A DNA stretch of 64,000 nucleotides from Bacteroidota bacterium (GTDB taxonomy: Bacteria; Bacteroidota; Bacteroidia; NS11-12g; UBA9320), in contig WGNA01000006.1 of assembly GCA_016124755.1 (NCBI GenBank), positions 186,001-250,000 on the forward strand. Direction: 5' to 3'. A program made the translations under genes and the position numbers. Positions 5,025 to 8,147 of the stretch are shown one piece after another (the stretch's first letter is position 1; every line of letters begins with the position of its first letter). Under the pieces are notes generated by a model. That model made no database searches and was not told the origin of the DNA. It worked only from the letters and a program-made list of their open reading frames with translations.

Positions 5025-6143
5025 TCATAAATTAAGATTGAGCAAATAACTGGTGCTGCGTGCCTTTCCTTGGGATAATACGGCTCCGGTTTCGAGCAAC
5101 ATCTGCAAATCGCGTGTTGCCGTTGCCTTTGATGCTTTGGTAATCGAAATGTATTTGCGCACGTTCATTCCTCCGACAAAACCATCCGGACCTTCTTCAA
5201 ACATTCGCCCCATGGCTTTGAGCTGACGAGCATTTAAATTGCTTTTGAATTGTTCGTACCAACGCGTTTTATGGATGGTGAAATTGATCATCCGATACGA
5301 TTCTTTTTGTGCTTCGAGTATGGTATTGGTAAACCATTTTACCCAGTTCGTAACCGTATTATTACGCTGAGCTTTTTGCAACTCAGAATAATACTGGGTT
5401 TTATTTTTTTCGATTGCCGTAGAAAGGCTTAACATAACCGGACGACCCACATTTTGTGAAAGGGACTTTTCGGCCAAAGCTCTGCCGATTCTGCCGTTAC
5501 CATCTTCAAAAGGGTGGATACTCTCAAAATAAAGATGTACAAGTGCCGAACGTACCGGCGCATCGCTGAGGGCAGACTTTTCACCGGGTGTTGTTTCATT
5601 AAACCATTTAATAAATCTCTTCATTTCGGCAGGAACCCGATCGGAAGGTGGTGCCTCAAAGTGGATTTTCCGTTTTCCGTATGCGCCTGAAACGATTTGC
5701 ATCGGATCTTCATGATCGCGCCACGCCCCGACTTTTATATCTTTTTCGCTAGATAAAAGCAGGTTGTGCCATTCATATAATTTTTGTTCTGTGAGTGGTT
5801 CATCAAAAGTCTGTCGCACATCAAACATCAAATCACCAACGCCTTTTGCTAATGATTTTTTGCTGAGCTTGTGTTTGGTTTCAAGACCCAGATTGTTGCG
5901 GATCGAAGAAACAACTTCATCGCGGTTTAAAAATTCACCTTCGATTTCTGATGTTTTTATGGCTTCACTTACCATCAGATTTATGAGGGTTTCAACGCCT
6001 TCTATTCCCGGAACGGCTTTTATCATTCCCGACAGGTGACTGTCTTCAATGCGAAAACGAAGTAATTCTTCTTCGAATATGCTTGTATCGTATTGAAAAA
6101 CAGGCCAATCTGATTGCTGCCAATTGTAAACCAATCGTTTCAT
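5025..6143 (-). CDS. Fic family AMPylase-like protein (DUF4172-Fic-winged helix)
   Basis: Fic proteins transfer AMP or other nucleotide parts to protein side chains. This 372-residue protein has an N-terminal DUF4172-like domain (about 1-90), the canonical Fic motif HPFEDGNGRIGR (210-221) with catalytic His210, and a C-terminal winged-helix-like region (about 300-372) suited to DNA binding. TSEIEG (64-69) fits the class II inhibitory helix motif [S/T]xxxE[G/N], so activity is probably autoinhibited. The start codon overlaps the first of two identical palindromes, which suggests autoregulation through the winged helix. There is no adjacent antitoxin gene, consistent with a self-contained inhibitory helix. 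The target is unknown. Confidence 0.93.
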   Translation of the reverse strand: MKRLVYNWQQSDWPVFQYDTSIFEEELLRFRIEDSHLSGMIKAVPGIEGVETLINLMVSEAIKTSEIEGEFLNRDEVVSSIRNNLGLETKHKLSKKSLAKGVGDLMFDVRQTFDEPLTEQKLYEWHNLLLSSEKDIKVGAWRDHEDPMQIVSGAYGKRKIHFEAPPSDRVPAEMKRFIKWFNETTPGEKSALSDAPVRSALVHLYFESIHPFEDGNGRIGRALAEKSLSQNVGRPVMLSLSTAIEKNKTQYYSELQKAQRNNTVTNWVKWFTNTILEAQKESYRMINFTIHKTRWYEQFKSNLNARQLKAMGRMFEEGPDGFVGGMNVRKYISITKASKATATRDLQMLLETGAVLSQGKARSTSYLLNLNL

Positions 6144-6171
6144 GAGCCGATAAAGTTACGTAATCGGCTCA
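6143..6171. promoter_or_regulatory. Palindromic operator 1 at the Fic start
   Basis: TGAGCCGAT (6143-6151) and ATCGGCTCA (6163-6171) are perfect 9-bp inverted arms with an 11-bp spacer. The left arm begins on the first base of the Fic start codon (read on the minus strand), and the right arm touches the -7 box at 6170-6177. Binding here would block transcription and possibly translation of the Fic gene. Confidence 0.7.
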
Positions 6172-6177
6172 AAATTA
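6170..6177 (-). promoter_or_regulatory. -7 promoter box for the Fic gene (TAATTTTG on the minus strand)
   Basis: On the minus strand the bases read TAATTTTG, an exact TAnnTTTG. It overlaps operator 1 by two bases and lies between the two palindromes. The transcript would start inside operator 1. Confidence 0.55.
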
Positions 6178-6186
6178 TTAAATATA

Positions 6187-6215
6187 TGAGCCGATTATTC
6201 TGATAAATCGGCTCA
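6187..6215. promoter_or_regulatory. Palindromic operator 2, identical arms to operator 1
   Basis: TGAGCCGAT (6187-6195) and ATCGGCTCA (6207-6215) repeat the arms of operator 1 with the same 11-bp spacer but an unrelated spacer sequence. The centres of the two sites are 44 bp apart, close to four helical turns. The site lies between the divergent Fic and ABC-F genes and could affect both. Confidence 0.7.
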
Positions 6216-6281: not shown

Positions 6282-8147
6282 ATGAATGTACTTTCGGTTG
6301 ATAATCTGGAAAAGAATCTTGGAGAGCGAATTCTGTTTTCAAACCTGAATTTTGGTCTTAGCAAAGGGGATAAGATGGCTTTGGTTGCGGGTAATGGAAC
6401 CGGAAAATCAAGTCTGTTTAAAATAATTGCCGGACAAGATATTCCATCTGAAGGCGAGGTTGTCTTTCGAAACGGTGTGCGTTATGGATTCCTTCCACAA
6501 GAACCGGATTTCTCCGCATTCGACACGGTTAACGACGTGATTCGTTTTGGTCATACGCAAATTCAGGAAGTGATCGATGCGTATCATCAGGCATTAGAAA
6601 CATCGGATCAAAACCCGAAGATGCTTGAACAGGCAATGGCCAGAATGGATGAACTCAACGCCTGGGATTACGAGCGAAGCCTTACCGAATTGCTGCACAA
6701 ATTTGAAATCCGGGATTTGAATCAACCGGTTGAAACGTTGTCGGGCGGACAAAAGAAACGATTGTCGCTGGCGATGACCTTACTCGACGAACCGGATGTT
6801 TTGCTTTTAGACGAGCCAACGAACCACCTCGATATTGAAATGATTGAATGGCTCGAAGGATATTTAATCAAAAGCGGTCAGACCATATTTATGATTACAC
6901 ACGACCGCTATTTTCTTGAAAACGTGTGCGACACAATTCTGGAAATGCACCAGGGAAAGCTCTATGTACACAAAGGAAATTACTCCTTCTTTCTCCAAAA
7001 AAGAGCTGAGCGAGAAGAAGTGAGGCGCATTGAAATTGAGAAAGCCGGCAAAAAAGTAAAAACCGAGATCGACTGGATTCGCAGGATGCCGAAAGCCAGA
7101 GGCACAAAATCGAGAGCCCGGATTCAGCGATTTGAAGATACTCAAGCCATCGCCAAAAGCGGATCAAAAGAAGCCGAACTCAAACTGGGTGTGAAGATGA
7201 ACCGCATCGGTGGAAAGATTTTAGAACTAAAGAAAGTTTATAAAGCCTACAGCGACCTAGTGGTTTTAAAAGGTTTTGATTACACTTTCAAAAAGGGAGA
7301 ACGCATCGGAATTGTCGGGCCGAACGGAGTCGGAAAAAGTACCTTTCTCAATATTCTAACGGGTAAAGTGTTGCCCGATAGCGGAAAAGTGAATCAGGGT
7401 GAAACGGTAATATTCGGACATTACACTCAATCCGGATTGCAGTTTAAACCCGACATGAGGGTGATTGACGTGTTGAAGGAATATGCCGAGGTGATAGAAT
7501 TAGCAGACGGGAGCAAACTCACCGCAAGTCAGTTTTTAAATCACTTCATGTTTCCGCCCGACATGCAATACAATCCGGTTAGCAAACTCAGCGGAGGAGA
7601 AAAACGCAGATTGCACTTGATGACGGTGTTGATCAAAAATCCCAACTTTCTGATTCTCGATGAGCCCACAAACGACCTCGATCTTATCACACTAAATAAG
7701 CTTGAAGATTTTCTCCTCGACTTTCCGGGCTGTCTCATCGTGGTTTCTCACGACCGGTATTTTATGGATACACTGGTCGACCATCTGCTCATTTTTGAAG
7801 GAGACGGAAAAATCAAAGATTACAACGGATCGTATCAGGAATACAAAGACGAAAAAGAACTTCAGGAAAAACAGGAAAAATCGGAAGAAGTAAAAAGCGA
7901 CTGGAAGCAGAACAAGCCGCAAGACGAGAAAAAGAAACTGAGTTTTAAAGAAAAATTTGAGTTCGAGCAACTCGGCGGTGAAATCGAAAAATTAGAATCG
8001 GAAAAGAAAGAGCTCGAAACCGCAATGCAAAATCCAACGGATGATTTCGATCAACTACGACAGCAATCTGAAAGGCTAACAGAAGTGATGAAACTGATAG
8101 ATCAAAAAGAAACGCGTTGGTTAGAGTTATCAGAATTCGAATCGTAA
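6282..8147 (+). CDS. ABC-F family ATPase (Uup-like)
   Basis: ABC-F proteins have two ATPase domains and no membrane part; they act on the ribosome or, for Uup, influence DNA transposition and ribosome-linked processes. The 621 residues show Walker A GNGTGKSS (37-44), LSGGQ (153-157), DEPTNHLD (177-184), a linker with RMPKARGTKSRAR (268-280), second Walker A GPNGVGKST (346-354), LSGGE (436-440) and DEPTNDLD (460-467). A charged coiled coil fills about 535-621, the usual Uup-type C-terminus. The second-domain DEPTNDLD and the C-terminal coil favour Uup over EttA. A one-mismatch -7 box (CAATTTTG, 6266-6273) precedes the ATG. It is divergent from the Fic gene. Confidence 0.9.
   Translation: MNVLSVDNLEKNLGERILFSNLNFGLSKGDKMALVAGNGTGKSSLFKIIAGQDIPSEGEVVFRNGVRYGFLPQEPDFSAFDTVNDVIRFGHTQIQEVIDAYHQALETSDQNPKMLEQAMARMDELNAWDYERSLTELLHKFEIRDLNQPVETLSGGQKKRLSLAMTLLDEPDVLLLDEPTNHLDIEMIEWLEGYLIKSGQTIFMITHDRYFLENVCDTILEMHQGKLYVHKGNYSFFLQKRAEREEVRRIEIEKAGKKVKTEIDWIRRMPKARGTKSRARIQRFEDTQAIAKSGSKEAELKLGVKMNRIGGKILELKKVYKAYSDLVVLKGFDYTFKKGERIGIVGPNGVGKSTFLNILTGKVLPDSGKVNQGETVIFGHYTQSGLQFKPDMRVIDVLKEYAEVIELADGSKLTASQFLNHFMFPPDMQYNPVSKLSGGEKRRLHLMTVLIKNPNFLILDEPTNDLDLITLNKLEDFLLDFPGCLIVVSHDRYFMDTLVDHLLIFEGDGKIKDYNGSYQEYKDEKELQEKQEKSEEVKSDWKQNKPQDEKKKLSFKEKFEFEQLGGEIEKLESEKKELETAMQNPTDDFDQLRQQSERLTEVMKLIDQKETRWLELSEFES

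Follow-up and report, generated by a model that had tools for sequence, protein, structure and literature searches.

Paired palindromes at a DUF4172-Fic-winged-helix promoter are very likely operators of the Fic protein itself

The stretch of DNA analyzed here (the window: 64,000 nucleotides of a Bacteroidota bacterium, positions 186,001 to 250,000 of contig WGNA01000006.1, assembly GCA_016124755.1) contains a gene encoding a Fic protein of 372 amino acids (aa) (5025..6143, minus strand; ATG at 6143-6141), with two palindromes at its promoter. Both palindromes are very likely operator sites for the Fic protein that this gene encodes, which would bind them as a dimer through its C-terminal winged helix-turn-helix (wHTH) domain and repress its own promoter. 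Comparisons across homologues make it very probable that DUF4172-Fic-wHTH proteins as a family repress their own genes, with each branch using its own DNA word. The original prediction proposed that this Fic protein binds the palindromes and represses its own gene, and this proposal is now strongly supported by comparative evidence, since the motif is widespread upstream of homologues and since the Fic recognition helix holds the protein columns with the strongest covariation with it.

Both palindromes match TGAGCCGAT-N11-ATCGGCTCA with 0 mismatches, at 6143-6171 (the proximal operator, O1) and at 6187-6215 (the distal operator, O2). Their spacers are equal in length (11 base pairs, bp) and unrelated in sequence, and their centres lie 44 bp apart, so that the paired arrangement first reported for this region is confirmed in every particular. 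None of 100 dinucleotide shuffles contained two matches, even at up to 3 mismatches, and these two are the only exact copies across the 4.05 Mb genome. Our search for a wider regulon in the source genome returned three 3-mismatch matches elsewhere, near the rate of a reversed-pattern control. The refined site is a 29-bp palindrome made up of two 11-bp half-sites, TGAGCCGA(A/T)TA. Reading the sequence for a promoter, we predict a Bacteroidota-type -7 box for the Fic gene, TAATTTTG (6170..6177, minus strand), and the final TG of this box is the TG of O1, giving the two elements two bases in common. O1 covers the last two bases of the -7 box, the A of the Fic ATG and, between them, the presumed transcription start; its overlap with the start codon and its contact with the box had both been noted for the first palindrome. 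By geometry O2, which has the same half-sites, covers the -33 position of this promoter. Relatives show the same arrangement: TATATTTGAG is the predicted -7 box in L006 and L037-L042 (loci from our comparative sets are cited by L numbers), and in many TGAGCC-group members from Bacteroidota the -7 box closes on the proximal-site TG (TATATTTGAGCC).

The original prediction suggested checking whether DUF4172-Fic-wHTH homologues have the paired motif in their upstream regions, and we did so by finding homologues through protein search alone and then extracting these regions (n = 105 DUF4172-Fic genes). In all 11 homologues of 41-57% identity, 29-bp palindromes occupy the equivalent place (-28 to +1 for the proximal site), 9 of the 11 with TGAGCCGAWTA half-sites, and L006, which is 50% identical and comes from another family of the same order, reproduces the 44-bp pair exactly. 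Overall, a 29-bp TG..CA palindrome is present in 82 of 105 upstream regions where dinucleotide shuffles predict 1.3, and in 4 of 315 control windows taken from inside the same genes. The outer lengths of inverted repeats in the 105 regions peak at 29, 31 and 33, which represents one centre extended. An independent set from viral contigs has the palindrome in 54 of 69 cases. The distance from one site to the next falls into clusters of 33/34, 44/45 and 52-55 bp, the 44-bp spacing seen here being frequent; such steps of about a helical turn are expected if the dimers have to bind nearly the same side of the helix. Among many TGCGG-type members (L055, L056, L057, L058, L060) the start codon lies within the half-site (ATGCGGAGAATA), and therefore the operator of this type also encodes the first residues of the protein, MRRI or MRRL.

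The half-site word varies together with the recognition helix of the Fic protein. This segment reads S338-K-A-T-A-T-R344 in the window Fic (5112..5132, minus strand; modelled helix 339-352) and includes A340 and T343. About a dozen helix/half-site dialects were observed: SKATATR pairs with TGAGCCGAATA, SxDTALR with TGCGG(A/T/C)GAATA, (K/R)DTAIR with TGCAACGAATA, (K/R)MTATR with TGTTACGAATA, SRATATR with TGAGNNATAGA, TASTATR with TGAGCTATAAA, SRATAYR with TGAAGCGATTA, SPSTAAR with TGACACGATTA, and TSATATR with TGATCGATATA. In the rare cases where S338 or R344 differs, half-site position 2 differs too (TA or TT in place of TG): R344 is replaced by N where the half-site is TTCGG (L201, L204), and S338 by H where it is TACGG or TACTG (L053, L206, L211). 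When overall protein distance was regressed out, the best half-site predictors among 331 alignment columns in the full unbiased set were A340 (rank 1) and T343 (rank 2), and a balanced subset (n = 43) returned the same two at the top with their order swapped. A tree built from the catalytic part of the protein has approximately 12 changes of half-site class. Pseudomonas proteins that are 31-35% identical to the window Fic have both SKATATR and TGAGCC in common with it; these loci come from the TGAGCC scan described below and were excluded from the statistics. An alternative is that some other transcription factor, with its gene elsewhere, recognizes the palindromes and regulates Fic. This would be in keeping with the palindromic operators that dedicated regulators usually bind, and with some scan sites being located away from any Fic gene, but we regard it as very unlikely: the half-site follows the Fic recognition helix and not host taxonomy (SKATATR/TGAGCC in both Pseudomonas and Bacteroidota), the top predictive columns are residues of the Fic helix itself, the genome holds no further exact site, and the operators move with Fic to unrelated neighbourhoods and to plasmids.

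The link between operator and Fic gene was also found when protein information was left unused. When 84,980 genomes (species) were scanned blindly for TGAGCCGAW-N11-WTCGGCTCA, at least 120 stretches were obtained, and in 73 of the 120 listed a DUF4172 Fic start lies at -30 to +150 bp of the site; a further 3 listed stretches contain Fic fragments and 7 have their sites near the stretch edge. Of the 37 listed stretches that lack a Fic match, two (L145 and L148) have a truncated Fic start after their operators. In Pseudomonas, a lone operator lies beside a DUF2135 gene with no Fic in the stretch in L078, L087, L169 and L178, and the same DUF2135 site carries Fic in eight loci (L067, L086, L090, L132, L144, L162, L168, L172). 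Based on these truncated starts and DUF2135 loci, many Fic-less sites can be read as scars of a lost Fic, and the lone Pseudomonas sites at DUF2135 are probable examples. We had considered the Fic-less matches as other regulatory targets, and set this aside since many read as scars instead, although scars do not account for all of the 37. Separately, in two Rhodocyclaceae (L127:335-363 and L143:7405-7433), a TGAGCC operator is located 63-71 bp upstream of an hsdM-like gene of a Type I restriction-modification system, with no Fic in the stretch, and this gene is possibly a real non-Fic target.

Examination of the window protein demonstrated DUF4172 (PF13776) at residues 6-87 (84.5 bits) and Fic (PF02661) at residues 116-226 (63.1 bits), both above cut-offs. 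The catalytic motif HPFEDGNGRIGR is intact at residues 210-221 (5481..5516, minus strand), and sequence and alignment also place the inhibitory helix motif TSEIEG at residues 64-69 (5937..5954, minus strand), so that a (S/T)xxxE(G/N) motif is present N-terminal to the Fic motif, as expected of a class II Fic protein. An AlphaFold model predicts a wHTH domain at residues 305-368 (5040..5231, minus strand; mean predicted local distance difference test score 87), with helices at 305-316, 328-335 and 339-352 and wing strands at 355-358 and 365-368, and its best PDB match is 8CIL. The winged-helix-like C-terminus and the inhibitory motif read from the letters at the outset are thus both borne out.

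Two characterized proteins provide precedents. CccR of Yersinia pseudotuberculosis, also a class II Fic protein with an inhibitory helix and a C-terminal helix-turn-helix (HTH), represses its own promoter 3.3-fold through that HTH, with a DNase I footprint (PMC9755527). The sites bound in that promoter are inverted repeats close to the -35 and -10 boxes, and the protein dimerizes via an N-terminal helix (PMC9755527). As with CccR, a palindromic operator is located in the own promoter of the window Fic, and it recurs among homologues. CccR has low sequence similarity to the window Fic and is a type VI secretion system effector, whereas the window Fic gives no hint of secretion, at which no test was aimed. 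CbFic2 of Coxiella (CBU_0822, PDB 8CIL) has the identical DUF4172-Fic-wHTH layout and is the closest solved structure (E-value 1.8e-73 over residues 7-366; template modelling score 0.82-0.84), although it has been studied as a histone-modifying enzyme and not as an autorepressor. Its wHTH binds DNA, and it dimerizes on DNA of at least 20 bp and then favours deAMPylation (PMC10628234), which fits half-sites about 20 bp apart.

In the mechanism we propose, one Fic dimer would occupy each 29-bp palindrome, with one winged helix (recognition helix S-K-A-T-A-T-R) on each 11-bp half-site and the half-sites about two helical turns apart. Two dimers, perhaps binding cooperatively, would then sit on nearly the same DNA face, with the dimer at O2 over -33 and the dimer at O1 over the -7 box, the start point and the start codon. 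RNA polymerase would be excluded, and Fic would keep its own level low by negative feedback. Throughout the family, the operator geometry would remain constant, with joint changes in recognition helix and half-site word. An alternative in which Fic binds the operators to activate its own promoter, or chiefly to tether itself to DNA, draws on the discussion of CbFic2 DNA binding as localization or enzyme switching (PMC10628234) and on the overlap of O1 with the promoter having been inferred from consensus only. We give this little chance of being correct, as a dimer at O1 would lie across the -7 box and on to the start codon, presumed start site included, and so block polymerase, and the CccR precedent is one of repression (PMC9755527).

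It is even less probable, and in our view highly improbable, that the palindromes work as RNA hairpins (as an attenuator or by masking the start codon) instead of as DNA operators. Perfect inverted repeats beside a start codon are able to form stem-loops, but O1 starts within the -7 box, which would leave most of the O1 5′ arm out of the transcript, and O2 is upstream of the box altogether; nor does the presumed 5′ end of the mRNA fold better than shuffled sequences (z 0.67). Most Pseudomonas-type loci with 34-bp spacing have sites that stop approximately 20 bp ahead of the start codon, and hairpins would leave both the helical phasing and the helix covariation unexplained. We rejected the hairpin candidate on finding no stable fold.

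Several observations weigh against autorepression through these operators. A TG..CA palindrome was not detectable in 23 of the 105 upstream regions, many of which carry direct half-site repeats or different edge letters, and the 37 of 120 listed scan stretches without a nearby Fic match have to be counted here as well. The covariation clusters on the tree, with the main D/A split at residue 340 amounting to one independent pair, from which we draw no statistical conclusion; what carries the argument is therefore the higher ranking of the helix over all other parts of the protein, together with about ten dialect changes. CbFic2 reportedly binds random DNA at nanomolar affinity, and thus specificity might be modest (PMC10628234). 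The geometry also differs from that of CccR, whose operator, AGATAATCAT-N26-ATGATAATCT, is one long-spacer palindrome with 10-bp arms, unlike the two or three helically phased 29-bp palindromes found here, which have 9- to 11-bp arms with N7-N11 between them.

By analogy with CbFic2 on unspecific DNA, the operator might also be the off switch of the enzyme, with the palindrome forcing the dimer and so moving it from AMPylation to deAMPylation, making the promoter a DNA "antitoxin". We regard this extension as doubtful. If it were true, expression and catalytic state would be tied to one binding event, and the helix/half-site dialects would prevent cross-talk among coexisting Fic enzymes.

The question of an antitoxin also arises from the other Fic systems that we compared. 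SoFic/Sofic anti-phage proteins are, like the window Fic, class II Fic proteins with a C-terminal wHTH, and the PADLOC SoFic profile matches the window Fic (E-value 4.4e-46, residues 53-366), with the NCBIfam SoFic equivalog model giving 55.5 bits against a cut-off of 550. DNA binding by Shewanella oneidensis SoFic had not been shown as of 2023 (PMC10628234). FicTA and Phd-Doc likewise comprise Fic-fold toxins with autoregulated promoters and palindromic operators, but in these a separate antitoxin does the DNA binding or inhibition, whereas the window Fic would combine both in one protein. Here Fic stands by itself, flanked by the divergent ABC-F gene and by a convergent open reading frame (ORF), and no adjacent antitoxin gene, as FicTA and Phd-Doc have in their operons, is present among ORFs of at least 80 aa, smaller ORFs being outside this search. 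The suggestion that no separate antitoxin would be needed has weaker backing: it agrees with a Fic gene that has no partner and carries its own inhibitory helix, but the related Escherichia coli Sofic has a small downstream antitoxin, AS1 (PMC12249575).

The divergent ABC-F gene (6282..8147, plus strand) begins 66 bp beyond the end of O2, and we had been led to ask if O2 also affects it. TGAGCCGAT palindromes were not found at the ABC-F orthologues of relatives that do not have this Fic, meaning that the operators most likely arrived with the Fic gene. With these palindrome-free orthologues and the 66-bp distance, an effect of the second site on ABC-F is unsupported, and we set aside its regulation by O2 and treat it as a neighbour outside the system.

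Autorepression by a Fic-HTH protein is already known from CccR. Our literature search, with most subscription journals outside its reach, found no report of the 29-bp geometry, the helical phasing, the family-wide presence or the helix/half-site code, and the family-wide operator code seems unreported. CbFic2 has been tested on random DNA only, and its authors called for work on specific sequences (PMC10628234); comparative genomics suggests that a specific sequence does exist for the family, at the own promoter, where the 29-bp geometry is conserved, the sites are helically phased and the half-site can be read from the recognition helix. This gives exact oligonucleotides and residues with which DNA-controlled AMPylation can be probed in relatives that are not pathogens, and the rule predicts operators for many uncharacterized Fic genes, including ones that match the anti-phage SoFic profile.

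Relatives of the window Fic are encoded in 161 viral-contig stretches (80 of them kept) and were not found in annotated phage records; these contigs are probably prophage or host-derived. Finally, distant Fic proteins with HTH-like C-termini (L021, L022, L023, L026) have long palindromes just upstream, for example TTAAAATATGAATAATCATATTTTAA in L022, and self-operators may extend beyond DUF4172 Fic proteins.
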